IMG/VR virus record: IMGVR_UViG_3300020183_000135
Location: 1 to 47,165 of that record
DNA: 47,165 nt
Reading direction: 5' to 3' (one strand)
DNA from: a virus
The stretch's first letter is position 1. Each line of letters begins with the position of its first letter. Below the pieces are notes generated by a model. The model was given only the letters and a program-made list of their open reading frames with translations, made no database searches and was not told the DNA's origin. Of the stretch, positions 35,673-47,165 are shown one piece after another. Both the position numbers and the translations under genes were made by a program.

Positions 35673-36428
35673 CTAAAAAAATATAAATCTCTTTTTTTTC
35701 TTTTTGTTTGTGCAATAGCCGAATTTTACAGTTTTCCTCCCGTTCCAATTCTTACCCACGTTTTCTACAGTAGCGTTCTCAGAATCTAAGTGTATTCCCA
35801 CTATTTCGGGTATTAGTTCCCTTTTGTCTCTACTCCACTTTTTGCAAAAAAGAACGTCTGTTCTATCTGCGCTACCGTGTTCAGAATTGTACTTGTTAAC
35901 CCCAGATCCCTGAGGGTGAAACATTTGAAAGTAGCCTATAGGCAAATAACCCGATTCTTTATATTGCATGGTCCTAGCCGCTATGGGAAAAGCGTCCAAG
36001 TGCATAAGAAAGTAGTTCTCGTAGATTAATTTCGGATTGGTTACGAACTCGCTCCATGATTCGAAATTTGGACACATCATCCTGTCTATACCGTATATCT
36101 TGCTTTTATCAAAGTATAGGTTATCGAACATCTGTCTGGTGAATGGAGGAAGATACACGTCCGCATCTATGTGACACACCCAATCCCTCTTGTGCAGAAA
36201 GTCCAATCCCTCGTTGATACCCCTAGCTTTATTGAAAGCGTCCCCTTCCTCGTAAAACGCTTTTGTCTTAATGCACTGCACGTTGTGATAGTTGCACAAC
36301 CTCTGGGTGTCTTTGTCTTCAGGAGAAGTTACTACGACCAAAGAATCAAAAATGGTTTTGTTTATGGGAAGGGTGTATGCTAAAAAGTCCGAATAATTTA
36401 CGCAAACCGTCACTGCTTCTAAGTACAT
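35673..36428 (-). CDS. Glycosyltransferase-like protein (GT-A, DxD)
   Basis: A 251-residue protein with GT-A features. It starts with 'AVTVCVNYSDFLAYTL' then 'DSLVVVTSPEDKDT', a nucleotide-sugar-binding pattern. The metal-binding DxD is in 'WVCHIDADVYLPP' (about residues 82-94). A late 'IVGIHLDSENATVEN' segment may hold a catalytic His/Asp. It lacks a signal peptide, so it acts in the host cytoplasm or on virion components. Possible uses are glycosylation of phage DNA, virion proteins or host surface glycans. The C-terminus is a Lys/Phe tail. Confidence 0.75.
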   Translation of the reverse strand: MYLEAVTVCVNYSDFLAYTLPINKTIFDSLVVVTSPEDKDTQRLCNYHNVQCIKTKAFYEEGDAFNKARGINEGLDFLHKRDWVCHIDADVYLPPFTRQMFDNLYFDKSKIYGIDRMMCPNFESWSEFVTNPKLIYENYFLMHLDAFPIAARTMQYKESGYLPIGYFQMFHPQGSGVNKYNSEHGSADRTDVLFCKKWSRDKRELIPEIVGIHLDSENATVENVGKNWNGRKTVKFGYCTNKKKKKRFIFF

Positions 36429-36443
36429 AAATAATTTTATTTG

Positions 36444-36776
36444 TTAAAATTTTCTTATTGGAGCGTTATGTTTGTTGTTGTTTTGGTGTGTTTTTTTGTT
36501 ATCTGGAGAGGTAATTACCCTTCTGGGTTGACGTGGTAAGATGGGAGAGGGCGAAAGATAGGGAGTGTACACGTTAACCCTGGGAGGAGCGTAATAGTAC
36601 CCACGATAGAAGGGATGTAAGTAGAATGGATAGTAATAGGGGGAATAATTCATTACAGAAGCCGCTATGTTGTTGTTTCTCGGAGTGGAAAAGTAAATAT
36701 CGTCAGGGCAGTATTTACCTGGATACGTGTAACAAGAGGATAAAAAAACTAAAAATGCTAAGATGCAGTGCTTCAT
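36444..36776 (-). CDS. Pro/Tyr-rich lipoprotein next to lysis genes
   Basis: A 110-residue exported lipoprotein. The signal 'MKHCILAFLVFLSSCYTY' has a lipobox LSSC, so Cys15 should be lipidated. The mature part is Tyr/Pro-rich ('SPYYYPFYLHPFYRGYYYAP') with an Asn/Lys-rich end, without recognisable domains. The frame can be extended upstream to 36809, but the ATG at 36776 gives a proper signal peptide and lies four nt from an ATATTTAT box. Position beside the endolysin/holin pair and lipidation raise the possibility of an outer-membrane spanin subunit. Surface modification is the alternative. Confidence 0.65.
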   Translation of the reverse strand: MKHCILAFLVFLSSCYTYPGKYCPDDIYFSTPRNNNIAASVMNYSPYYYPFYLHPFYRGYYYAPPRVNVYTPYLSPSPILPRQPRRVITSPDNKKTHQNNNKHNAPIRKF

Positions 36777-36777
36777 G

Positions 36778-36930
36778 TTAATAAATATTGTGCCTATACA
36801 AAGAAGCAACCGAATCGCTTAACGGGCGCACTAAAGACGAATCGAATACGGGTTCTTCAGTGTGTGTCGATGCTTTCTTGTTTCCACAGGATAGAAATAA
36901 AATTGAGCAAAACAAAGCGATCCTTTTCAT
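36778..36930 (-). CDS. 50-aa small lipoprotein (o-spanin-like candidate)
   Basis: A 50-residue ORF. Its signal 'MKRIALFCSILFLSCGNK' contains a lipobox LSCG (Cys15). The mature peptide is only about 36 residues ('ASTHTEEPVFDSS' onward). Size, lipidation and position directly after the holin gene resemble Rz1-type outer-membrane spanins, though it is not proline-rich. The stop codon lies two nt before the next lipoprotein's ATG and overlaps the upstream edge of its promoter-like box. The proper start and signal support a real gene. Confidence 0.65.
   Translation of the reverse strand: MKRIALFCSILFLSCGNKKASTHTEEPVFDSSLVRPLSDSVASLYRHNIY
36781..36788 (-). promoter_or_regulatory. Late-promoter-like ATATTTAT box
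   Basis: Sense ATATTTAT, four nt before the ATG at 36776, embedded in the last codons of the 50-aa lipoprotein. It may also be fortuitous coding sequence. Confidence 0.35.
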
Positions 36931-36976
36931 AAAAGTATTTTTTAAAATAAAAAAAAATAAATTAATAAATTAAGTG

Positions 36977-37237
36977 CTACTGTTGCGGCTCTTCATCGGA
37001 CTCAGAGTCTTCCTTGAGTTCCTTCTTAGTGTTTATGAACTTATCTACAGACGCTATTCCTAGGGATCCTAAGGTGAGAATGAGAAAGGAGTTGAATATG
37101 AACTCGTTCACTACTAGCTCTTTCCCCAAATACCCCGTAATGATATCAGCTATAGCAAATAAGATCATCATCACGAGAGATATGAATCCCGCCACAGACT
37201 TTTCGTTTATGTGGTTGTTATCTTCGAATAGTTTCAT
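36977..37237 (-). CDS. Two-span holin (putative)
   Basis: An 86-residue protein. There are two hydrophobic spans, about residues 14-37 ('VAGFISLVMMILFAIADIIT' onward) and about 44-63 ('FIFNSFLILTLGSLGIASV'). They are joined by a short loop, with a charged, acidic C-terminal tail. This is the profile of class II-type holins. Its ATG overlaps the endolysin stop (one nt), giving an endolysin-holin-lipoprotein order. The holin would time lysis by permeabilising the inner membrane so that the endolysin can reach the wall. Function is inferred from topology and neighbour. Confidence 0.75.
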   Translation of the reverse strand: MKLFEDNNHINEKSVAGFISLVMMILFAIADIITGYLGKELVVNEFIFNSFLILTLGSLGIASVDKFINTKKELKEDSESDEEPQQ

Positions 37238-37830
37238 TACTTGAGCAAATTGTAGTATTCGTTAAAGTGTTTCTGGCGGTCAGGAAGACCTATCGTTCCA
37301 CCGTTCACGCACTTCGTAACCGACACCACACTCGCGTCAGTAGCGTCCTTGCACCTAAACAAACAGTGCCTGTGAAAAAACCAAGCCGCTGAAAGCAGCG
37401 GATACTTCGTAGCAATAAGATCAGGGAACTGGAGGATATTTTCAGTCACCACTTTATCGAACTGTGTGTAGTTGTTCTTACCCGTAAGTTGTATGTATCC
37501 CCTTCCCCTGTATCTGTAACCTTCTCCGGAAACTTCAGGACCGTTACCCATGCGATTACCGTAAACTAAGTTTGCTATTTTTTCTGGCTTTCTCTCGTAT
37601 AGTTTTGCTTTATTGGGATCGGGGAAATATTTCTTGAACATCGCCAAGAGGCCCTTTGCGCTGTAGTTTAAATTCTCGGTTGTTAGTCTAAAGCCACCGC
37701 TTTCGTGACCGCACTGAGAGAGGAAGTGAGCTAACTTTACTGGAGTATTGAATTCGAATTTCTGGATTACTTCTGGAATCTGAGCTATTACGTTATCTGG
37801 AATGTGACCCTTTAACTTGTTTATGTCCAT
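37237..37830 (-). CDS. Endolysin, GH19 chitinase-like lysozyme
   Basis: A 197-residue glycoside hydrolase family 19 protein. 'FLSQCGHESGGF' (about residues 37-48) holds the catalytic Glu. 'ENLNYSAKGLLAMFKKYFP' and 'EGYRYRGRGYIQLTGKNNY' (about 100-118) are classic GH19 phage-lysin blocks. It cleaves the peptidoglycan glycan backbone. It has no signal peptide, so it needs the adjoining holin. It heads a unit with an ATATTTAT box 20 nt upstream. Length is typical for a single-domain GH19 endolysin. Confidence 0.92.
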   Translation of the reverse strand: MDINKLKGHIPDNVIAQIPEVIQKFEFNTPVKLAHFLSQCGHESGGFRLTTENLNYSAKGLLAMFKKYFPDPNKAKLYERKPEKIANLVYGNRMGNGPEVSGEGYRYRGRGYIQLTGKNNYTQFDKVVTENILQFPDLIATKYPLLSAAWFFHRHCLFRCKDATDASVVSVTKCVNGGTIGLPDRQKHFNEYYNLLK

Positions 37831-37850
37831 AATCTATTGGTTTTTCAGAC

Positions 37851-37858
37851 ATAAATAT
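37851..37858 (-). promoter_or_regulatory. Late-promoter-like ATATTTAT box
   Basis: Sense ATATTTAT, 20 nt before the endolysin ATG at 37830, seven nt from the stop of the lectin-like gene. Late expression suits a lysis cassette. Inferred. Confidence 0.5.
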
Positions 37859-37864
37859 CATAGT

Positions 37865-39307
37865 TTATTGAGTGGAGTGAGATAGATTCACGTCTCCTAA
37901 TACGCAATACTTTATATTTTGAGTCAAGTTACTTGTACCCAAGTTTATCGTAAAGAAGGAAACAGGGTATATAGAGGAAAAATTTGCTCTAGTTATATTA
38001 TCGTAATCAGTGGGTTCGAACCAAAGTACTTTAAAAATAAGTTTAGATCCAAGGGTGTGAGCGAGTATTAGATAAGCATCACCTAAATCTACTACGCCAT
38101 CCATGTTAACGTCTGCTGCTTTCCACTGTTTGGTGTGTGTCATGACCAACCCCAGAGCAGTTTGATTGGGAGTGCTTTCGTTCAGAATCTCTCCAAATAC
38201 CAAGTCGAAATCCGTAGATGTTACGCCCTGAACTGGCATCGATGGGACCAGTTTATAAGTTGCGTTCTGAATTGGTAGCGTGAAAGTGTAGTTACCGCTT
38301 GCGTCCACGTTCTTGTAATCTATTAAAGTGTCAGTTCCGTTTACGATTCTGTAAAGAGTTAATAACGGTCTGGATGTTAGAGATGCGGGGATAGATACTG
38401 TACCGCTTAACGTATTGGTAATGGCCACTGTATTCGTTGTGTTCGCAGTGTAAAATCCTGTGAAAGTGGCGTCCTGTGGATTCGACCACGTACCAAACTC
38501 TACTATGTACGGATTGGAAAAATTAGAGGTGCCAGGTAAATCGTTCCAACAGCTACCACCGTTCCATTTAGTCACAGCAAAGTCTTCGTCCCCAGCGTTG
38601 TTAGGTTCACCCGTACACCAGTTATTGTATTGCCCAGAAACGTTTCCAGTCAATTGACCGTTTGCGGTTTTTATCAGAGTTCCGTTTTCTGGACCAGCAT
38701 CTATCCTCCAGTAACCCTCTTGAGCCCTATCTGTAAGGGCGAACCATATATTGTTTTGCGGTACGTTAGATATGATGAAACTTTCTTCGTTGGAAGACGT
38801 TATAGTCACCAAGTATCCAGTTTGACCCTTGAAAGTCTGTTGAGCGCTCAACGCCTTAGCGTTATCGTACGTAGCACCAGCAGATACCGGTCTGTAAAAG
38901 TGACCGTTAATGGCGTTGTAGTAGTATCCAGAAGGATTAAGCGTCGCTGATATAGATATCTGGGCGTTTCCCAGAGTCGCACCGGTGTTCACCTTCAGCG
39001 TAGAGAGAGCGTTGTTTATATTTGCCATGGTTCCCGTAAAGCTTACGCGGGTGATGCTGGACCACGAAGAGTAACCCGTTGCTCTTGTCAATCCAGTCGT
39101 GGTAAGGATGCTAAAAGTGGTACCAGACGGGGGATTAATGAGACCGACCGAAGCCAATAATATGTCAGACGCTCCAAACCCGCTTATTACGAAACCGCTA
39201 GCATCCTGCCCGCTTACGCTTGCTTGGTAAGTCCTACCAGGTGGGGCTGTTATGGATTGACCCAACCCAACCAAAGGAAACAACACTATGACTACAAAAA
39301 GTCTCAT
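37865..39307 (-). CDS. Exported C-type-lectin / dockerin-like protein
   Basis: A 480-residue secreted protein with a signal peptide (about residues 1-16, ending GLGQ). Residues about 134-271 are a C-type-lectin-like domain: 'YDNAKALSAQQTFKGQTGYL', 'WFALTDRAQEGYWRIDAG', 'CTGEPNNAGDEDFA' and 'CWNDLPG'. These include the EPN carbohydrate-type motif. An Ig-like carboxypeptidase-regulatory unit follows, then a dockerin-like calcium loop 'ADVNMDGVVDLGDAYLIL' (about 397-415). The chain ends at 'LGDVNLSHSTQ', exactly where the paralogous 630-aa protein carries on into cohesin-like and T9SS domains. It probably binds glycans at the cell surface. Its start overlaps the nuclease stop (ATGA). Confidence 0.78.
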   Translation of the reverse strand: MRLFVVIVLFPLVGLGQSITAPPGRTYQASVSGQDASGFVISGFGASDILLASVGLINPPSGTTFSILTTTGLTRATGYSSWSSITRVSFTGTMANINNALSTLKVNTGATLGNAQISISATLNPSGYYYNAINGHFYRPVSAGATYDNAKALSAQQTFKGQTGYLVTITSSNEESFIISNVPQNNIWFALTDRAQEGYWRIDAGPENGTLIKTANGQLTGNVSGQYNNWCTGEPNNAGDEDFAVTKWNGGSCWNDLPGTSNFSNPYIVEFGTWSNPQDATFTGFYTANTTNTVAITNTLSGTVSIPASLTSRPLLTLYRIVNGTDTLIDYKNVDASGNYTFTLPIQNATYKLVPSMPVQGVTSTDFDLVFGEILNESTPNQTALGLVMTHTKQWKAADVNMDGVVDLGDAYLILAHTLGSKLIFKVLWFEPTDYDNITRANFSSIYPVSFFTINLGTSNLTQNIKYCVLGDVNLSHSTQ

Positions 39308-39930
39308 CTAAACTTGAATCCAGTAAGTTTTTCTATTTCTTCTACGCTTGTTTTGTTATTTTCCAACCCATCAGCCTTGCTCGTATCGTTGTTGAAAAGG
39401 TACGCAAACCACTGGTTGGTACCCTTAACATAAATAACTTTCCAACACTGTTTGGGAATAGATACCCTTCCTATTTTTTTAATTTCCCCAAAAGATCCGC
39501 ACCACACTTTAGTAGAATCGTTTTTTATAGCAATATCTCTAACAACCACTTCCAAAGACTTCCAGTCTCCCCTATTGAGAGCGGGATATTGAGCAGTCAT
39601 GTTAGTAAAGTAAAAAGATTGCTCGTTCGATACCCGATCGCACGCTGCGTCTGCAGCAGGAAAGTTGTGACCTCGATCGAATCCACTATTTGTGTAATCG
39701 CTTTGCAAATTGCTTTCTTTTGCTATTCCAGGATCTGGAATGAACTTGTCTTCTCTCTTGACTTTAATATCACAAATTAAGCTATTCTTTGTTATCCACC
39801 ACTCTACTTTTACTGGGTAACACTTAATTTTGTCAAAAGTTGTAGAATATGCCTTGTAATGCAAGGTCACCGTATCCTGAGCTTTGGCAGATGCGCAAAT
39901 AACGAAAAATGCGAGTAATAGTTTTTTCAT
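39304..39930 (-). CDS. Exported DNA/RNA non-specific endonuclease (NUC1 family)
   Basis: A 208-residue secreted nuclease. The signal peptide is 'MKKLLLAFFVICASAKAQ'. The beta-beta-alpha-metal core has 'FDRGHNFPAADA' (DRGH general base, about residues 84-87), 'FYFTNMTAQ' and 'LNRGDWKSLE' with the metal-binding Asn (about 118). Later blocks, 'KVWCGSF' and 'QCWKVIYVK', are typical of NucA/EndoG relatives. It would degrade DNA or RNA in the periplasm or outside the cell. Coupled at both ends by ATGA overlaps to the barrel and lectin genes, it belongs to a single exported-protein operon. Confidence 0.88.
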   Translation of the reverse strand: MKKLLLAFFVICASAKAQDTVTLHYKAYSTTFDKIKCYPVKVEWWITKNSLICDIKVKREDKFIPDPGIAKESNLQSDYTNSGFDRGHNFPAADAACDRVSNEQSFYFTNMTAQYPALNRGDWKSLEVVVRDIAIKNDSTKVWCGSFGEIKKIGRVSIPKQCWKVIYVKGTNQWFAYLFNNDTSKADGLENNKTSVEEIEKLTGFKFR

Positions 39931-41306
39931 AGGTTAATTTTTGATCCTACTAGTAAAAACGATAGTATTGGAAACTCTGGGTTTGTTGAAACGTTTGCTT
40001 TATAGTTTACGTTGAATTTAAACCTTTTGGTTAGTTGGTAATCTAAACCGCTACCCAAGAAACCGCTAAACGTCCTATCGGTCGTGGTTATTTGGTCCTT
40101 TGAAGAGTAAATCAAAGGGGTGGAAATGATGTATATCTCTGGGGATAGAGTAAGCCTCTTTCCCGCTCTTAGCGGTTTAGTGTAAAACGCTGTGAAAGAT
40201 GGGGATAGGTAAGTGTTATCCTCTTCTGAAACGAGAGTGCCAGCAGCGCTCAGATTAAACCCAGTAACACCCCACTTATCCGCGTTGAGTATACCACTAT
40301 ACCCAAAGAATGCTAACACGTTTCCGTAAGTGTAAACGCCAGTCAGACTAACGTTGTGAATGTATTTTAGAGATCCGCTCTTTGAGAAGTGCATCTTAGT
40401 AAATCTACCAGACAACGCGAACTGCTTAAAGTTTAGCCAAGTCATGCTTGTTAGACCCCAACTTGAGGCTCCTGTCATTGAGGACCTCGATATGCCCAAA
40501 TTTAGGATCGGAGTGAAAGATTTATCTAAGTTTTGCGCAGTGGTTAAGTCGGATTGCACTATTACAGGATTGCTTCTAGAGTTACCGCTCTTACCTCCCT
40601 TGCTACTTTTGCCTCCTCCGCCCCCTTCTTTCTCTTGTTTTGAATCGCTATTCATAGTCGTAGTCGTCGCAACTTCCTCTCCCGCTTCTGAATTTTTATT
40701 ACCAGAGTTTGAATTAGTAGCACCACTAGCGTTACCGCCGACACCAGACCCACCGCTAGCATCACTAGTATTATTCCCGCTTCCATTGCCAGTGCCTGTA
40801 GAATTTTTAGTATTACTTGAAGTGCTTGTATTATTTCCAGTATTATTGTTTGCATTTTTTTCGTTTTTTAATTTTTTTTCCGAAGAAGAATTGTTACCTT
40901 TAGAAGCAGCATCAGTCGCTCCACTCACAGAAGTTGAAGTAGAAGAAGAAGCTGATTGCGCTTGACTCATTATGCTACCAACAACGCTTTGTACTGTTCC
41001 GCTTATAGCTTGAGATACTATTTGGTTTTGAGTGACTTGCCCCGATTGTTGGGAGCACGGAGCAACTTTTCTGTATTCCGCGTAAACTTGATTGACCCAA
41101 GAGGAGAACGCTCCGCTCAAAACGTCAGATGAACTGAATTGCCTAGATTGACCTAGGAAAAATACCACAGTACCTGAGGCAGGAATAGAAAAGAACGTTA
41201 TTTGTTTTGTGCAGGGATCTACGAATTGGTGAGTGAGTACTTGACCCTCGCTCTTCAAACTACAGAGAACGAAAAACCAAGCGCTTAAAATAATTTTTTG
41301 CCACAT
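39927..41306 (-). CDS. Outer-membrane beta-barrel protein with long Asn/Ser/Gly insert
   Basis: A 459-residue exported protein. A signal peptide (about 1-21, ending SEGQ) is followed by a small domain with two Cys (C32 and C83). Residues about 117-245 are a low-complexity Ser/Asn/Thr/Gly region with a Lys/Gly patch. Residues about 250-459 are amphipathic strands alternating with turns ('WGLTSMTWLNFKQFALSG', 'RFKFNVNYKANVS'), as in 8-12-strand outer-membrane barrels. The chain ends 'FLLVGSKINL'. It is three nt downstream of the CsgG-like gene, so the two may form one secretion or display unit. Family not identified; barrel assignment is from strand periodicity. Confidence 0.6.
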   Translation of the reverse strand: MWQKIILSAWFFVLCSLKSEGQVLTHQFVDPCTKQITFFSIPASGTVVFFLGQSRQFSSSDVLSGAFSSWVNQVYAEYRKVAPCSQQSGQVTQNQIVSQAISGTVQSVVGSIMSQAQSASSSTSTSVSGATDAASKGNNSSSEKKLKNEKNANNNTGNNTSTSSNTKNSTGTGNGSGNNTSDASGGSGVGGNASGATNSNSGNKNSEAGEEVATTTTMNSDSKQEKEGGGGGKSSKGGKSGNSRSNPVIVQSDLTTAQNLDKSFTPILNLGISRSSMTGASSWGLTSMTWLNFKQFALSGRFTKMHFSKSGSLKYIHNVSLTGVYTYGNVLAFFGYSGILNADKWGVTGFNLSAAGTLVSEEDNTYLSPSFTAFYTKPLRAGKRLTLSPEIYIISTPLIYSSKDQITTTDRTFSGFLGSGLDYQLTKRFKFNVNYKANVSTNPEFPILSFLLVGSKINL

Positions 41307-41309
41307 TCA

Positions 41310-42053
41310 TTATTTAGGAAACACTCCCTTTTTAATCATTCGAGGTAATATTCGAGCGCAAGCTATGTCAAGTGCTTTCTTAGTTGCTATCGAAACCGTC
41401 GATTGATTGAACTTAACGGGATCTGCTGTGGCGTCTGAGAGTAGAGTCAATTCTCGAGTAGTTTTCGCCTCTCCTAAACCGGAAGCCGCTATGATTTCAC
41501 CCGTTTCCGCGTCAGTGAACCTAACTTGTAAACCCAAACGAGTGACCATCATGTTTTTTACTCCGTCCTTCAAGTTGATCGTCTCGTCTTCTGAAATAGA
41601 CCAATCGTAAACTTCTATGCTAACGAAGTAGTGCGCTAACCTTATCTTTCCCCTACCGTCTAATTTATCTTCGGTGATTCCTGATTGACTCGCTTGAAAC
41701 TGTTTTACCATGCGATTTTTGATCTCTGTCTTGTCCTCCGTGAAAGTAAAACGATTGAGGTTTTCGAGGTATTCTAGGGATATGTTTGCAACGCCCAGAC
41801 CCACTCTTTTCTCTTTGAGTTCAGGATACATTTCGTAAACCTCCTCAGATATACCGCACTTCAAAATCTGAATGGGAATAGTGGGCCCAGAGTAGTCGAG
41901 GTATTGCTGTATGTCTATTGCTCTCTCGAAGGAAGCTTTGTACTCTTCTGTCTTCGTAGTGCCTATCGTTTGACCTTCGGCTTTGTAAGCAGCCAAAGTC
42001 ATAGTTAGGTACCAAAGTACGAATATTGAGGCGTTTCTATTATTACTAATCAT
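41310..42053 (-). CDS. CsgG-like outer-membrane secretion/curli-pore protein
   Basis: A 247-residue exported protein (signal about 1-28, ending AEGQ). The body resembles CsgG, the nonameric outer-membrane channel of curli secretion: 'KRVGLGVANISLEYLEN', then 'LGLQVRFTDAETGEIIAASG' and a C-terminal 'STVSIATKKALDIACARIL' helix. Unlike E. coli CsgG it has no lipobox Cys after the signal. T4-like pelagiphages have been reported to carry CsgG/CsgF-type genes, discussed as a gated lysis or export pore. The frame could open one codon earlier with GTG; ATG 42053 is used. It overlaps the upstream membrane-protein gene by eight nt. Confidence 0.68.
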   Translation of the reverse strand: MISNNRNASIFVLWYLTMTLAAYKAEGQTIGTTKTEEYKASFERAIDIQQYLDYSGPTIPIQILKCGISEEVYEMYPELKEKRVGLGVANISLEYLENLNRFTFTEDKTEIKNRMVKQFQASQSGITEDKLDGRGKIRLAHYFVSIEVYDWSISEDETINLKDGVKNMMVTRLGLQVRFTDAETGEIIAASGLGEAKTTRELTLLSDATADPVKFNQSTVSIATKKALDIACARILPRMIKKGVFPK

Positions 42054-42723
42054 CACCGTTTTTTTTGTTAAACCACTCTTTAATTAAGCCGCACTTTTGA
42101 CACTCGAGTTCTCCGTCGTTGTTACTATCTCCCCAAACGTGCTCGCACTGTCTGTGTTCGAAGTAAAAGTCGATATCCCCGTCTCCGTCCTCGTCTATAC
42201 CGTCCATCACCCCGTCTCCGTCTTCGTCTATTTCGACACCTATTCTTGGTTTAGCGGTTTTGTTTTCTTCTAATTTTGATACTGTGGGTATAACTTCTTC
42301 CTCTTTTTTAAACTCTTCGGCTCTATTGGCTTCAATTAAGTTGATTTCGTGCGCATGATTTGCAGCTTTAACAAACGCATCTGGAATTAGTGGCGTAACA
42401 GATTTATTACTTTCTTTCATATCATTAGTATTTGAAAGAGAAGCACCATCTTCCTCATCCATCTTTTGAACCAACATCTTGTCCTTGTCCGTATCGCTGA
42501 ACCAGTAGTCTATGATCTTACCGTAGCTACCGATAAACGCGCCAAGCATAAGGAGTAAGAGCTCTTTCCACTCTCCAGCTATATCGCTTTTCATCTCTAT
42601 AGCAGCGAAAATGCCTCCTACTATCAAAATAAAAGATCCTAACACCAACGCAGTGATATACCACCTGCGTTTCATCATAGCATTTAATAGGTCTTTGAAA
42701 CCTGTCGATTGTTGCTTATTCAT
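42046..42723 (-). CDS. Two-span membrane protein with calcium-loop and zinc-ribbon tail
   Basis: A 225-residue protein. Two hydrophobic spans (about 21-42 and 52-68, 'ALVLGSFILIVGGIFAAIE' and 'LLLLMLGAFIGSYGKIIDYW') are followed by a charged linker. Then comes a repeated Asp-rich loop 'DEDGDGVMDGIDEDGDGDID' (about 169-188), like thrombospondin-3/EF-type calcium sites. It ends in a Cys/His zinc-ribbon-like tail, 'CEHVW' and 'CQKCG'. The 'WKELLLLMLGAFIGSYGK' span resembles phage holin-like families. It may anchor the export cluster in the inner membrane. Function unknown. Confidence 0.6.
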   Translation of the reverse strand: MNKQQSTGFKDLLNAMMKRRWYITALVLGSFILIVGGIFAAIEMKSDIAGEWKELLLLMLGAFIGSYGKIIDYWFSDTDKDKMLVQKMDEEDGASLSNTNDMKESNKSVTPLIPDAFVKAANHAHEINLIEANRAEEFKKEEEVIPTVSKLEENKTAKPRIGVEIDEDGDGVMDGIDEDGDGDIDFYFEHRQCEHVWGDSNNDGELECQKCGLIKEWFNKKNGDD

Positions 42724-42726
42724 GAT

Positions 42727-43047
42727 TTACCATTGAGGCTCTTTCTCTTTGAATTCGTCTCCCTCTTTTTTCTTCTTGGGAGCTTCTTTTACTACTGGTT
42801 TTTCTACGACTCTCTCGATCACCTTAGTTCCGCCACCAACTGCCTGCGTTTGACTGTTATTATTCTCTACGTTGAGATTAATTACAGGAGCGACTTGTTG
42901 AACTGGAGCGGATTCTTTATCGTCTTCGCCAAAAAGGGTGGTACCTACCCAAGTGCCTGCGCCGAGAACTATGGTGCTGATAGTGCCTATGATGGTCTTT
43001 TTCAGGCCAGACCAAGTGCCATCGTTTTGTTCTAATTCTTCTGACAT
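42727..43047 (-). CDS. Single-span membrane protein with Pro/Lys-rich tail
   Basis: A 106-residue protein with one membrane span (about 16-40, 'KKTIIGTISTIVLGAGTWVG' onward). The tail is Gln/Asn/Val-rich, then Pro/Lys-rich ('EKPVVKEAPKKKKEG'), loosely TonB- or spanin-like in composition. It lies three nt upstream of the calcium-loop membrane protein, so the pair is probably co-translated. If the tail is periplasmic it could reach outer-membrane partners encoded next to it. No family recognised. Confidence 0.55.
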   Translation of the reverse strand: MSEELEQNDGTWSGLKKTIIGTISTIVLGAGTWVGTTLFGEDDKESAPVQQVAPVINLNVENNNSQTQAVGGGTKVIERVVEKPVVKEAPKKKKEGDEFKEKEPQW

Positions 43048-43059
43048 GGTTATTTAATT

Positions 43060-44952
43060 TTAAGCTTTAATAAATTGTTTTGTTAATTTTCTTTGGTTTT
43101 CGTTATCAAGTACCAATAAATAGTTCCCATTTGCTGCTGAGGTTAAATCTACTTGCTTAATCACTGTGGTAACGTATTCGTCGCTAGCCACCCTACCTAT
43201 ATCTTTAATTTTCCTTCCCTGAATGTCATAAACCGTGGCCATAGAAGCCATGTTAGTTCTAGGGAATATCACTACGAGTTCGAAGAACCCGCTGGTAGGA
43301 TTGGGACGGATGGTAGCAGTTATCTCTTTGTTGGATTGGTAGTAAGAGTCGGATCTTTTAGAAGATAAAACAACGTAATCCGAGGCCAAGTTTATGTTAA
43401 AGTGATCCCCGTCCTTATCGCTAGCATCCATCAAGCGTCTCACGTATACGTTTGTCTGCACATCAGCGCTTCCGATGGGAGAGAACTTGAGTTTAAACGG
43501 CGTGTAGTTACCCAAAAGAGATCCGATCTTTTGGTTGTTCATTCCACCGAAGCGAATGATACCGTTAGCGTCGTCGTGAGTCAAGTATTGCAACCAGGGC
43601 CCCTGAATATTGGAAACTATTTCTTCGAATCTCACCTTATTGGGATCGTATTTCATCTCGAACTGCAACCCATCGTTGCTAATTCCGTTTGTGTTGATGT
43701 TAAAATTAGCGTACATTGCCTGTCCAGTAGGAACCGTTACGTTTGGTATGCTCACTTCCATAGTTCCTATATATTTGGCAGCTGCTACTAAGTTACCGTT
43801 AGCGTCGTAAACGGGAGAGGAGTGCGTTCTGTCAACGTCCCCAAGTATGAAGTATTTAATGTCAACGTTTGTCAGGTTAGTCGTACCTACGCTATCGTAA
43901 ATATGAGTTACACCATTTATGTAACTAGGCCAGTTATTCCACTGATTCGCATCTAACACAAGAGAATCGTACGCTCCCCTTCTAAACACGTTTATCAGTT
44001 TAGTGGTGTCTATTGGTTTTAGACCTGAAACAGAAGCATAGATGAGGTAGGGATCGCCTCCGTCAAGAGCTCCGGATTTGTTGATGTCTGCTATCAAGTA
44101 AGCTAACCCGTTCTTCAGGTACTGACGGGTGTAAGCTTGGTTAACGTCTGTAGTGATGTATTCGTCGTATGCTTTTACTGCATCTGACACCGTAACAGCG
44201 TTATCCCTAATCGTGGATAGCGCTCCAGGAAACTTCACTTCCAACTTGTATCTCGTGTTTTCCTCTATATTCTTGAGGGTATACGTGCCGTCTGCAGCCA
44301 CGGTGATAGAATCTACGAAAGAGTTATTATTGGCTTGATAACACAGGATTTGGGGTTTAAGATTTATGCTCGGTCCCAACCACACTTTACCAGATAGCGT
44401 CAAGTTGTTGGATAGCTTCAAAGCGAGCTTTTGATTAACCAATTGAGCGACGTTGTCTCCTATGCTTTTACCGTCGTTCTTAAACATCCTAACCCAGTTT
44501 ACGGTTACGCTATCAGCGAAGTAGTTAGCTGTTACGTTGTTTATCTTGTACTTGTTATGAATGATATATCCGTTAGAGTTTATCGCTCCACCGCTCGGAA
44601 GTACCAAGTAGTTGCGACCTATTACCCAATCGTTATTAGAAACGTAAGTGTAAGTGCCATTAACGTAGTTGTTGTATTTGTAATTTTCCCACGTCTTGTA
44701 TGAAACCGTGGGAGTCATGCCGTTCACAGAAGCATCTACCGTAGTAGATATGTAAGTGAGCAACGCCCTTTTGTATTGCCAATCCACCTGAAATGCGCGA
44801 ATTTCGTTAGAGCCAGGACGATAGTACCAAGCTACATCAAGCGTGTCTCCTCTCTTTATTGTAGAGATGGTCTGAAAGTGTCCTATCTGGGGTGTCTGTG
44901 AAAAAGAAGCAAAACTAATTAGAAGCGCAATGACTAATAATAGTTTTTTCAT
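43060..44952 (-). CDS. Exported dockerin/cohesin-like protein with T9SS sorting domain
   Basis: A 630-residue secreted protein with a signal peptide (1-19, ending ASFSQ). An N-terminal beta region leads to a regulatory-like Ig unit. Next is a split dockerin-like pair, 'ADINKSGALDGGDPYLIYA' (about 286-304) and 'LGDVDRTHS' (about 370). Residues about 395-535 look cohesin-like ('LQFEMKYDPNKVRFEEI', 'PFKLKFSP'). The last 86 residues are a type A T9SS C-terminal domain: 'IRPNPTSGFFELVV', 'VYDIQGRKIKDI' and a final 'KLTKQFIKA'. Hosts with T9SS cleave this tail and attach or release the cargo at the cell surface. A paralogous module is in the lectin protein nearby. Confidence 0.82.
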   Translation of the reverse strand: MKKLLLVIALLISFASFSQTPQIGHFQTISTIKRGDTLDVAWYYRPGSNEIRAFQVDWQYKRALLTYISTTVDASVNGMTPTVSYKTWENYKYNNYVNGTYTYVSNNDWVIGRNYLVLPSGGAINSNGYIIHNKYKINNVTANYFADSVTVNWVRMFKNDGKSIGDNVAQLVNQKLALKLSNNLTLSGKVWLGPSINLKPQILCYQANNNSFVDSITVAADGTYTLKNIEENTRYKLEVKFPGALSTIRDNAVTVSDAVKAYDEYITTDVNQAYTRQYLKNGLAYLIADINKSGALDGGDPYLIYASVSGLKPIDTTKLINVFRRGAYDSLVLDANQWNNWPSYINGVTHIYDSVGTTNLTNVDIKYFILGDVDRTHSSPVYDANGNLVAAAKYIGTMEVSIPNVTVPTGQAMYANFNINTNGISNDGLQFEMKYDPNKVRFEEIVSNIQGPWLQYLTHDDANGIIRFGGMNNQKIGSLLGNYTPFKLKFSPIGSADVQTNVYVRRLMDASDKDGDHFNINLASDYVVLSSKRSDSYYQSNKEITATIRPNPTSGFFELVVIFPRTNMASMATVYDIQGRKIKDIGRVASDEYVTTVIKQVDLTSAANGNYLLVLDNENQRKLTKQFIKA

Positions 44953-45425
44953 AAGATTTTCTCAATTAAGGTTACAATGGTTTTTTTAAGGGCAGAACGA
45001 GCTGTCGCTTGGTTAAAACCACCACCTTCATCGATAATCATAGTAGAAGTAGATATTTCGGAGGACTTACCTGTCGCAACGTATTCTTTCAATCTTTTTT
45101 CTCCTTCGTACAAGGTACCCTTTATTTTTATGATAGTTTCGTTGTCGACCTTGTGAAATACGCTAACACCCGCAGAAGTCTGTTGGATATCGAAGTACAC
45201 TATCTCTAATTCCAATTTGAGAGCTTTAGGATCTTCGCTGAGGCCGTAGCCCCTGTCCTGTATCGCTTCTTCCAAAACGTTCTTAACGCCGAAAGCCAAG
45301 TTCTTGTTTCCAGTCATGGGTCCGATCTTGACTTTGTTCGTAACTTTACTAATCTTTACAAAGGTAGGCTGGGCAAAGCAAAAATTACAGAACAACACTA
45401 GCGCTATTGTCATAATATTTTTCAT
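44949..45425 (-). CDS. Small exported CsgG/DUF4410-like protein
   Basis: A 158-residue exported protein (signal about 1-19, ending CFAQ). The body has 'NKNLAFGVKNVLEEAIQDRG', a long beta hairpin 'ALKLELEIVYFDIQQTS' and a C-terminal helix 'ATARSALKKTIVTLIEKIL'. This layout is similar to small CsgG-like or DUF4410-type periplasmic/outer-membrane proteins. It heads the export operon, and its TGA overlaps the ATG of the T9SS-tailed protein. The frame can open two codons earlier at TTG 45431, but ATG 45425 gives the better signal peptide. Family assignment is tentative. Confidence 0.6.
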   Translation of the reverse strand: MKNIMTIALVLFCNFCFAQPTFVKISKVTNKVKIGPMTGNKNLAFGVKNVLEEAIQDRGYGLSEDPKALKLELEIVYFDIQQTSAGVSVFHKVDNETIIKIKGTLYEGEKRLKEYVATGKSSEISTSTMIIDEGGGFNQATARSALKKTIVTLIEKIL

Positions 45426-45433
45426 ATGCAATC

Positions 45434-45441
45434 ATAAATAC
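45434..45441 (-). promoter_or_regulatory. Late-promoter-like GTATTTAT box
   Basis: Sense GTATTTAT, eight nt before the ATG at 45425, at the head of the export operon. One mismatch from the common ATATTTAT. Inferred. Confidence 0.4.
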
Positions 45442-45456
45442 TAGAAAAAACAGCAG

Positions 45457-45472
45457 TATAGGTTAACCTATA
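45457..45472. promoter_or_regulatory. Perfect 16-bp palindrome, operator-like
   Basis: TATAGGTTAACCTATA is a perfect palindrome. It lies between the divergent 158-aa secreted protein and the 41-aa basic protein. It would suit a dimeric repressor or activator controlling one or both. No other full copy was noticed in the window. Confidence 0.4.
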
Positions 45473-45515
45473 TTATTATTTTGAGAAAAAGTACGTTTAT
45501 AAAAAAATAAAGATT

Positions 45516-45641
45516 ATGGCAAACGCTAAACCAAAATCAGTTCCTATGAGAAGTAGAAGAAGTGGTGTAAAGAAAACGAAATTAATAAAAGCAAATTTAA
45601 AAATAATTAACAAAATTGAGAAAGAGTTAAAGATTTCTTAA
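45516..45641 (+). CDS. 41-aa basic protein
   Basis: A 41-residue ORF, MANAKPKSVPMRSRRSG then a Lys-rich helix ending 'KIEKELKIS'. It is very basic and A+T-rich in codon use. It lies divergently from the export operon, after the 16-bp palindrome, and before the DUF2490 gene. Small basic proteins are common in phages, but support here is only frame, start and composition. Confidence 0.45.
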   Translation: MANAKPKSVPMRSRRSGVKKTKLIKANLKIINKIEKELKIS

Positions 45642-45658
45642 TATAGAAATAACGGCTT

Positions 45659-45722
45659 AAAAGAAACGCTTTCATAGTTATTTGGGAGCTAACTAAATTA
45701 ACTTTATGAGAGCGTTTCTTTT
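45659..45722 (+). promoter_or_regulatory. 18-bp inverted repeat that covers the DUF2490 start codon
   Basis: Arms 45659-45676 and 45705-45722 pair over 18 bp with a single G-U, around a 28-nt loop that holds a small GTTA/TAAC hairpin. The ATG (45706-45708) lies in the right arm, and a T-run follows. It could act as a translation-blocking stem or an attenuator/terminator. Confidence 0.5.
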
Positions 45723-46311
45723 TTTATTGTTACTTTTTTTACTCACTTTTGTTTTTGGGCAAGATGAACAATGGTCAACACTTAATGTTGTTGGAAAGTT
45801 AAGTAAGAACTATACACTTGCTATGGAGGGTGAGCAAAGATATAGTTGGGAAAAGGATTATGTTAGATATTTTCATTACGATGCTGGTTTGATTAGAACA
45901 TTCAATTCACATCTTAAAGTTGGTATTTTTTATAGAGAGATATATGAAATTAAAAATGGAAGGAGAGTAATAGAGTTTAGACCTCATACCGATGCTTTTG
46001 TAACACATGGGAAACATTGGAAATGGAGAGTACGATTGGAATATCAGGGTAAAGAATTTGATGAAGACCTTTTTAGATTCCGAATCAGACCAACATACGA
46101 ATTACACAAATTTAAACAAGCAGACCCATTTATACAAACTGAATTAAACTTTACCAAATATGGATTTACCCGAAATCGTTTTAACACTGGATTAACATTT
46201 CATTGGGGAAAACTAACAACACAACCTGCTTTTCTATTAGAATCCTTAAACAAAGGTGGTAATTGGACAAACGTAACAGCAATTTGGATAAACAATAAGA
46301 TTTCTTTTTAA
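45706..46311 (+). CDS. DUF2490-like outer-membrane beta-barrel protein
   Basis: A 201-residue exported protein with a leucine-rich signal peptide (about 1-18, ending VFGQ). The body is a run of amphipathic strands typical of DUF2490 barrels: 'LAMEGEQRYSWEKDYVRYFH', 'LKVGIFYREIYEIKNG', 'WRVRLEYQGKEF' and 'RFRIRPTYELH', closing with 'GLTFHWGKL'. DUF2490 is widespread in Bacteroidota outer membranes; function unknown. By eye its codons are more A+T-rich than those of the export operon, suggesting a separate, perhaps recent, acquisition from a host. Its start codon is buried in an 18-bp inverted repeat. Confidence 0.78.
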   Translation: MRAFLFLLLLFLLTFVFGQDEQWSTLNVVGKLSKNYTLAMEGEQRYSWEKDYVRYFHYDAGLIRTFNSHLKVGIFYREIYEIKNGRRVIEFRPHTDAFVTHGKHWKWRVRLEYQGKEFDEDLFRFRIRPTYELHKFKQADPFIQTELNFTKYGFTRNRFNTGLTFHWGKLTTQPAFLLESLNKGGNWTNVTAIWINNKISF

Positions 46312-46346
46312 TATTTATAGGTAACTAAAAAAGGTAATTAACACTG

Positions 46347-46367
46347 TCACAATTGATACTATTGTGA
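46347..46367. terminator. Small inverted repeat between convergent genes
   Basis: TCACAAT and ATTGTGA (7 bp, 7-nt loop) lie between the DUF2490 gene and the convergent 62-aa gene, overlapping the stop of the latter. It has no T-run, so it is at best a weak bidirectional terminator. Confidence 0.25.
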
Positions 46368-46547
46368 AACGCTATCTATGAATTCTTTTCCTTTAGATAC
46401 TATATCAATGAGGGTATATATATTCTTGGATTTTAACACTCCGTCAGCATCTCTGTTATTCCAATAGAGTAAATAAGTGTCCCTGGGAATAGCGTACCAG
46501 AGTTCAGTATGGGGATTGTAGTGAAAAACGTAATTGTATATTTCCAT
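46359..46547 (-). CDS. 62-aa conserved-looking phage protein
   Basis: A 62-residue protein rich in aromatics: 'YNYVFHYNPHTELWYAIPRD' then 'YLLYWNNRDADGVLKSK' and a C-terminal helix. The pattern recurs, as I recall, in T4-like phages as a short uncharacterised protein. It is soluble, with no metal or catalytic motif. It lies next to the tRNA cluster, convergent with the DUF2490 gene. Confidence 0.65.
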   Translation of the reverse strand: MEIYNYVFHYNPHTELWYAIPRDTYLLYWNNRDADGVLKSKNIYTLIDIVSKGKEFIDSVSQ

Positions 46548-46585
46548 CGCTTTATTTTAATGGTCTTAACCTATGTAAAGTATTT

Positions 46586-46717
46586 TCATTTTTCTTGTTC
46601 CAAAAAATCCTCTCCCCTGTAGTTTGGATGGTGCTTCGCCATGTAGTCTATGCCACCTGCCCACAACCAAGCCAAAGAGAGCGAGAAAGATACTGCGAGT
46701 AAAATGAATCCTAACAT
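46586..46717 (-). CDS. 43-aa single-span membrane peptide
   Basis: A 43-residue ORF. A hydrophobic N-terminal span (MLGFILLAVSFSLSLAWLWA) is followed by a short His/Asp/Glu-rich cytoplasmic or periplasmic tail. It has a GTATTTAT box five nt upstream, directly after the tRNA-Arg gene. Small membrane peptides like this are common in phage tRNA regions. Function unknown. Confidence 0.5.
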   Translation of the reverse strand: MLGFILLAVSFSLSLAWLWAGGIDYMAKHHPNYRGEDFLEQEK

Positions 46718-46722
46718 GTTTT

Positions 46723-46730
46723 ATAAATAC
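46723..46730 (-). promoter_or_regulatory. Late-promoter-like GTATTTAT box
   Basis: Sense GTATTTAT, five nt before the ATG at 46717 and two nt downstream of the tRNA-Arg 3' end. Inferred. Confidence 0.4.
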
Positions 46731-46732
46731 TG

Positions 46733-46804
46733 TAGTTCCGTCCAGAATCGAACTGGAATATCAAGCTTAGAAGGCTTGCGTTCTATCCGTTGAACTACGG
46801 AACC
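46733..46804 (-). tRNA. tRNA-Arg (anticodon TCT)
   Basis: A full cloverleaf on the minus strand. The 7-bp acceptor (first pair G-U) is followed by the canonical TA at positions 8-9 and a 4-bp D stem GTTC/GAAC. The anticodon stem CAAGC/GCTTG has loop CTTCTAA (anticodon TCT), and the T arm has loop TTCGATT. Discriminator A; CCA is not encoded. It reads AGA, a frequent codon in these genes. Confidence 0.92.
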
Positions 46805-46828
46805 GAAAATAGCTGTCGTTTTCTAATG

Positions 46829-46901
46829 AGCCTCCTATCGGAATCGAACCAATGACCTACTGATTACAAATCAGTTGCTCTACCTGCTGAGCTAAGGAGG
46901 C
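46829..46901 (-). tRNA. tRNA-Thr (anticodon TGT)
   Basis: A full cloverleaf on the minus strand. The acceptor is GCCTCCT/AGGAGGC, the D stem GCTC/GAGC, and the anticodon stem ACTGA/TCAGT with loop TTTGTAA (anticodon TGT). The T loop is TTCGATT. Discriminator is T; CCA is not encoded. It reads ACA codons. Confidence 0.94.
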
Positions 46902-46909
46902 CAAAGAAC

Positions 46910-47098
46910 TCAAGACTTGGATTCGAGCTCCCGCTTCTTGCGGTACATCCAGAACAGACCCATCCATCCTCCCAAAAGGATCGCGATCGCCGAAGCGTAG
47001 GGGTACGCGCTAGTCACAACCGTAAAAACCACGCAACCCGCAAGGATACCCGCAACAAAAGCAAGGGACTTACCCAAATCAATCAGTGTTTCTTTCAT
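46910..47098 (-). CDS. 62-aa two-span membrane protein
   Basis: A 62-residue protein with two hydrophobic spans (about 10-29, 'KSLAFVAGILAGCVVFTVVT', and about 34-51, 'ASAIAILLGGWMGLFWMY'). They are separated by a short Tyr/Pro turn, and the tail is basic (YRKKRELESKS). Topology resembles a small holin or membrane accessory protein, but no partner lysis gene is adjacent. It starts inside the 3' end of the upstream gene (20-nt overlap), implying coupling. Confidence 0.6.
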   Translation of the reverse strand: MKETLIDLGKSLAFVAGILAGCVVFTVVTSAYPYASAIAILLGGWMGLFWMYRKKRELESKS

Positions 47099-47165
47099 TT
47101 TCTATTTGTTTTTTTGTCCACTTACTTTTATCCAATAGGTCATCCCAATCTTTGCACCCTTGTTC
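47079..47165 (-). CDS. Partial CDS, C-terminus only
   Basis: The last 28 codons of a minus-strand gene that enters from beyond the window, ending 'KWTKKQIENERNTD' at a TGA (47079-47081). It overlaps the 62-aa membrane protein start by 20 nt. It is charged and helical, without recognisable motif. Support is only the open frame and the overlap style common in this genome. Confidence 0.4.
   Translation of the reverse strand, partial: EQGCKDWDDLLDKSKWTKKQIENERNTD

Follow-up and report, generated by a model that had tools for sequence, protein, structure and literature searches.

Pelagibacter phages such as HTVC008M carry curli (type VIII secretion) operons, and these are the nearest precedent for the locus described here. 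Pelagiphage curli operons have been proposed to serve aggregation ("sibling capture") or defence against superinfection (PMC7029224, PMC9599517), and PMC9599517 reports curlin repeats in pelagimyophages; control of lysis has also been proposed for phage CsgG/curli (PMC9004378). The HTVC008M CsgG is canonical (PF03783, 4.8e-53) and is accompanied by CsgF and curlin repeats. Near its CsgG gene, gp018 (NC_020484.1, 10638-11963) joins a PA14 domain (PF07691, 2.7e-6) to curlin repeats (PF07012, 5.2e-8), a PA14 head that goes without mention in the available part of PMC9599517. A second point of reference is FapF, which consists of a periplasmic N-terminal part, a linker and a 12-strand barrel (PMC5557850).

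The DNA analysed here is a stretch of 47,165 nt (positions 1 to 47,165 of IMG/VR record IMGVR_UViG_3300020183_000135; "the window"). The virus record has a T4-like portal (E 1.4e-75), and the window also encodes terminase, head protease and baseplate genes. Eight tightly packed minus-strand ORFs fill positions 37865-45431, just as a sequence-only reading of this DNA had described them; they overlap by 4 nt at 39304, 39927 and 44949 and by 11 nt at 42046. That reading also took the gene set to be directed at the envelope or surface of the cell, and our analysis supports this. The set unites envelope proteins with a surface anchor and with modules for sugar binding and for docking, and we therefore consider it probable that the phage encodes an apparatus for exporting adhesins and displaying them on the outside of an infected Bacteroidota cell. 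The features of the region are as follows.

37237-37830: GH19-type endolysin (PHROG 181), adjoining the cassette
37865..39307, minus: exported lectin protein, 480 aa (cargo)
about 37868-38224, minus: its X-like plus dockerin-like C-terminal region (Dockerin_1 0.03, sub-threshold)
about 38537-38845, minus: its C-type lectin domain (Lectin_C 7e-6, over cut-off)
39304..39930, minus: exported DNA/RNA non-specific endonuclease (Endonuclease_NS 8.6e-39; optional member)
39927..41306, minus: outer-membrane barrel protein, 459 aa (AlphaFold model, Foldseek; core)
about 39936-40562, minus: its 12-13-strand barrel (AlphaFold model)
about 40581-40934, minus: its disordered linker of about 118 residues
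about 41064-41243, minus: its N-terminal domain (AlphaFold model)
41310..42056, minus: exported CsgG-fold protein, 248 aa (AlphaFold and Foldseek; core, most conserved)
42046..42723, minus: TM225, inner-membrane protein, two-TM hairpin (frequent member)
42727..43047, minus: TM106, inner-membrane protein, one predicted TM (core)
43060..44952, minus: scaffold protein, 630 aa, with signal peptide (cargo and anchor)
about 43069-43305, minus: its T9SS type A C-terminal sorting domain (Por_Secre_tail)
about 43393-43761, minus: its cohesin (Cohesin 5e-4, sub-threshold in the window protein)
about 43819-44220, minus: its dockerin-like region
44949..45431, minus: Lipoprotein_16-like exported protein, 160 aa (Lipoprotein_16 5e-5, sub-threshold; core)
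45706-46311, plus: DUF2490 ORF (DUF2490 7e-9, over cut-off)
46732-46901: tRNA-Arg and tRNA-Thr, beyond the cassette

By a crude script-based scan, Sec-type signals whose cleavage site is followed by Gln occur in seven of the nine ORFs of this stretch (six minus-strand ORFs, in agreement with the earlier count, plus DUF2490) but in only 1 of the other 45 ORFs of the window. The Gln is invariant in the alignments of the barrel and scaffold proteins. Gln after the signal peptide is a known tendency of Bacteroidota exported proteins. The cassette lies between lysis genes and tRNA genes, as had been recognised, with a two-TM holin-like ORF and the endolysin adjoining it. Past the holin-like gene, at 36444-36930, there are two small ORFs that look lipoprotein-like by eye (LSSC, LSCG) and could be candidates for outer-membrane spanins.

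Co-occurrence of the gene set in related phages was looked for and found: about 170 loci hold a syntenic set, and so does the cultured Flavobacterium phage immuto (host Flavobacterium sp. LMO8), where the nuclease, lectin, X-dockerin, cohesin, TM106, CsgG-fold, barrel and Lipoprotein_16-like genes form a single run (gp12-gp19). At least 466 relatives of the CsgG-fold protein occur among the IMG/VR stretches. In the 80 closest loci, many of which are cut by contig ends, the barrel is found in 75, TM106 in 69, the scaffold in 55, the Lipoprotein_16-like protein in 52, TM225 in 51, the lectin in 39 and the nuclease in 22, and the order and direction of neighbouring genes are nearly always kept. 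A scan from immuto (81 loci including immuto itself) gave the scaffold in 77, TM106 in 77, the barrel in 73, the Lipoprotein_16-like protein in 72 and the lectin in 68; because some loci are near-copies, such locus counts are not independent. Two members of the set as first described need revision. The DUF2490 barrel is found in 0 of 169 loci and does not belong to the unit, and the nuclease, although present in the window and in 38 of 169 loci (tblastn), is optional.

A host fragment or chimeric assembly is rejected because the cassette shares its contig with a T4-like portal in 15 of 22 large relatives (100-308 kb), at portal identities down to 39%; on a 174-kb cassette contig the portal is 76% identical. 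Among about 85,000 bacterial genomes scanned there were two relatives, each on a contig with the cassette beside a phage endolysin, and one of these contigs also has a weak portal match. The chimera test thus left standing the view that the island is phage accessory DNA. In 50,697 phage records, lectin, cohesin and CsgG-fold matches came only from immuto isolates at the limits used, and our full-text search of open-licence papers found no published account of this Bacteroidota-phage cassette. The CsgG-fold, barrel and Lipoprotein_16-like genes are jointly absent from two relatives, one of 183 kb (portal 77% identical) and one of 163 kb (61%), though both records are linear and the absence could be a gap; the 163-kb relative retains only a scaffold match of about 56 N-terminal residues. 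We counted this joint absence as support for adhesin display.

The AlphaFold model of the CsgG-fold protein (pLDDT 78) matches CsgG pre-pore structures in Foldseek (4uv2, 1.5e-7), followed by PelC, FlgT and LptE. The window ORF itself has no Pfam match, and PF03783 was found in 2 of 32 homologues (best 1.9e-4); profile alignments of the family to the CsgG proteins of E. coli and HTVC008M were insignificant. The hairpin strands of the model comprise 20 and 18 residues, by count a few less than those of E. coli CsgG, and an acidic SEDE stretch is conserved in the hairpins. A lipobox Cys after the signal is absent from the window protein and most homologues and present in a few (e.g. L238 and L232). 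The protein had been called a CsgG-like pore; the fold holds in the model, but the protein has no lipobox and its hairpins are only putatively membrane-spanning, and the pore is downgraded from a fact to a possibility.

The second modelled protein, the barrel, has a predicted 12-13 strands, and in the model an N-terminal domain plus a helix precede the disordered linker. Its gene occurs in 140 of 169 loci. FapF is the top Foldseek match by E-value and FapF chains make up nine of the ten best matches, while by TM-score the barrel is closer to KdgM (0.71) and NanC (0.67); since unrelated outer-membrane barrels often match one another, the FapF ranking is suggestive only. Bacteroidota capture glycans through surface sugar binding. 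The resemblance to the KdgM and NanC porins would fit an uptake or other envelope function, for example surface glycan-binding proteins feeding a sugar or nutrient to the outer-membrane barrel; however, profile searches of the cassette detected neither a transporter nor a glycoside hydrolase nor a TonB-dependent receptor, and we regard this explanation as very improbable. PDB sequence searches with the barrel, Lipoprotein_16-like and CsgG-fold profiles returned nothing useful, the eukaryotic matches of the barrel sitting in its low-complexity linker. The 160-aa protein had been taken for a second, small CsgG-like protein; it is Lipoprotein_16-like instead, its similarity to the CsgG-fold family being weak (hhalign probability 15%, E 0.0017).

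The two inner-membrane proteins differ in how regularly they occur, TM106 in 153 and TM225 in 87 of 169 loci. TM106 has a Gln/Asn- and Lys/Glu-rich tail and an invariant C-terminal Trp, and TM225 has a Cys-rich, zinc-ribbon-like C-terminal end (alignments). In a close relative (L003:7259-7633), a 124-aa ORF without a Pfam match lies between them. The two-TM hairpin of TM225 is holin-like by eye, and in many relatives the cassette contains a holin-like ORF or has one close by. Together with the endolysin and holin-like genes that adjoin the window cassette, this raises the alternative of an envelope-lysis module, in which the CsgG-fold, barrel and membrane proteins would permeabilise the outer membrane or time its disruption alongside endolysin and holin, and the lectin and cohesin would be passengers. 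For the CsgG of methylophage Melnitz, a part in the timing of lysis has been proposed (PMC9004378). However, endolysin matches are near the cassette in only 71 and holin86 in only 52 of 169 loci, TM225 as a known holin is rejected by the lack of a PHROG holin match, the immuto cassette follows replication and nucleotide-metabolism genes, and the lectin, PA14, cohesin and T9SS domains would be left unexplained. We consider this alternative unlikely.

The predicted cargo appears modular: heads of the C-type lectin or PA14/GLEYA type are combined with dockerin-like and cohesin modules. The lectin protein carries a signal peptide and no sorting domain of its own; it has homologues in 93 of 169 loci (tblastn), and the immuto homologue matches Lectin_C at 3e-15. 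A diversity-generating retroelement acting on the lectin was considered and rejected, as positions 36000-47165 contain no direct repeat of at least 40 bp, though a template elsewhere in the genome is possible. The scaffold has both hallmarks of a type IX secretion substrate, a Sec signal and a C-terminal sorting domain (Por_Secre_tail over cut-off: 5e-6 in Pfam, 8e-7 in NCBIfam). In 25 scaffold homologues, Pfam found Cohesin in 15 (best 6.5e-10), PA14 in 5, GLEYA in 3 and T9SS domains in 4. Immuto devotes two separate genes to the X-dockerin part and the cohesin-plus-sorting-domain part; its dockerin-like modules belong to gp13 and gp14 and its cohesin to gp15, and Cohesin (5.9e-9), Lectin_C and Por_Secre_tail all match over threshold. 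The dockerin matches are weak (0.03 in the lectin protein, 0.0038 in 1 of 25 scaffold homologues, ScaH dockerin 0.029). The lectin, nuclease, T9SS-domain and DUF2490 identities of the sequence-only reading thus agree with matches over cut-off; of its cohesin/dockerin pair, the cohesin is borne out by the homologues and the dockerin stays at the sub-threshold match.

The anchor of the scaffold takes two mutually exclusive forms. Scored with a profile made from C-termini of these same phages, the sorting domain is present in 81 of 127 loci, with zero small lipoproteins between the scaffold and TM106 genes, and absent from 46, of which 45 carry one to three small lipoproteins in that position. 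The sole exception, L180, has a truncated scaffold ORF. Similarity to the sorting domain was seen in three groups of these lipoproteins (hhalign E 5.9e-7, 4.1e-5 and 9.4e-5). The tree requires three switches of anchor, at least two of which are imposed by supported branches, and at every switch the two traits change in opposite directions; with only two to three independent switches, the exclusivity does not reach significance in independent-pairs statistics. A further lipoprotein of ~100 aa lies near the CsgG-fold and barrel genes in three relatives without the sorting domain (L041:10797-11102, L006:9668-9946 and L043:11321-11623).

The presence of an anchor in nearly every locus bears on another explanation, in which lectins and nuclease released at lysis would bind glycans and degrade DNA in matrix or debris, helping progeny to spread or find hosts while the living cell is not remodelled. 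The lectin and PA14 heads suit such a role, and the nuclease adjoins the lectin both in the window and in immuto. A sorting domain or lipoprotein anchor and an optional nuclease argue against it, and we think it quite unlikely.

All cassette genes are under purifying selection, with median dN/dS from 0.10 (CsgG-fold) to 0.22 (lectin and TM106), as calculated from pairs among relatives that are not independent. In pairs with 75-85% CsgG-fold identity, TM106 is 61% identical, TM225 59%, the lectin 50%, the Lipoprotein_16-like protein 44%, the barrel 38% and the scaffold 36%. The barrel and Lipoprotein_16-like proteins have diverged at nearly the same pace as the cargo, so that a pattern of conserved machine and variable cargo is clear only for the CsgG-fold protein and TM106.

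For adhesin display, we envisage the following sequence of events. All parts except the two inner-membrane proteins would leave the cytoplasm by Sec, as their signal peptides suggest. The core (the CsgG-fold protein, TM106, the 12-13-strand barrel and the Lipoprotein_16-like protein) may aid export or assembly at the outer membrane, judging from folds and co-conservation. The cargo would consist of the cohesin scaffold and of dockerin-like modules that bear sugar-binding heads, a C-type lectin in this phage and PA14/GLEYA in its relatives. The genus Flavobacterium has a T9SS. Because the scaffold ends in a T9SS sorting domain, a host T9SS, the presence of which we assume for the window host, would transport it to the cell surface and fix it there, and the dockerin-bearing lectin could then dock on its cohesin. 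In sister phages, separate small lipoproteins of similar sequence profile would replace the missing sorting domain. The likeliest benefit would be a change in how the infected cell adheres or how accessible it is, either masking it against superinfection or aggregating susceptible cells. Among the purposes suggested earlier, superinfection exclusion and adhesion are possible, whereas the conserved parts, which favour adhesin display, speak less for eDNA degradation or controlled lysis.

Widespread T4-like phages of Bacteroidota thus keep a conserved, modular operon for what appear to be exported adhesins, and if the T9SS reading is true, phages would use type IX secretion for their own proteins. 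We suggest, tentatively and with more doubt than for display as such, that the operon represents an undescribed phage display class, with a T9SS-hung cohesin scaffold, dockerin-tagged lectins and a CsgG-fold/barrel/TM106 core, in which the sorting domain is exchangeable for separate lipoproteins that share its fold and act in trans. As immuto and Flavobacterium sp. LMO8 are a cultured pair carrying the operon, the purpose of phage-encoded surface export is directly testable.

Among known systems, cellulosome-type scaffolds also involve exported proteins that bear cohesin and dockerin-like modules and of which one is anchored, a likeness clearest in immuto; in contrast, the cassette has no carbohydrate-active enzymes, is phage-encoded, uses a T9SS-domain or lipoprotein anchor and has weak dockerin matches. 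PelC, LptE and FlgT, periplasmic proteins of the CsgG superfamily, share the modelled fold of the window protein, which differs from PelC in its longer hairpins and in having no lipobox. PelC and LptE also work beside a barrel. With Pseudomonas FapF, the barrel protein as modelled shares a periplasmic N-terminal part, a flexible linker and a 12-strand-type barrel; it differs in lacking a sequence match, in its extra N-terminal domain and in the higher TM-scores of KdgM and NanC, and no gene for a Fap-type substrate was found in the cassette. With the pelagiphage curli operons, the cassette shares T4-like phages, a CsgG-superfamily protein and an exported head of sugar-binding type. The window CsgG-fold protein does not align by profile to the canonical HTVC008M CsgG, and Pfam and NCBIfam found no CsgF, CsgE or curlin-repeat match in any island ORF; the cargo of the cassette is of lectin, cohesin and dockerin-like type, anchored through a T9SS domain or a lipoprotein, and the two kinds of operon differ in fibre, anchor and most components. 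With its PA14 domain fused to curlin repeats, gp018 gives the pelagiphages, like the present group, a PA14-type head alongside a CsgG-superfamily protein, although the remaining parts differ. The operon suggests that phage remodelling of the host surface extends beyond the curli-bearing phages of SAR11 and OM43.
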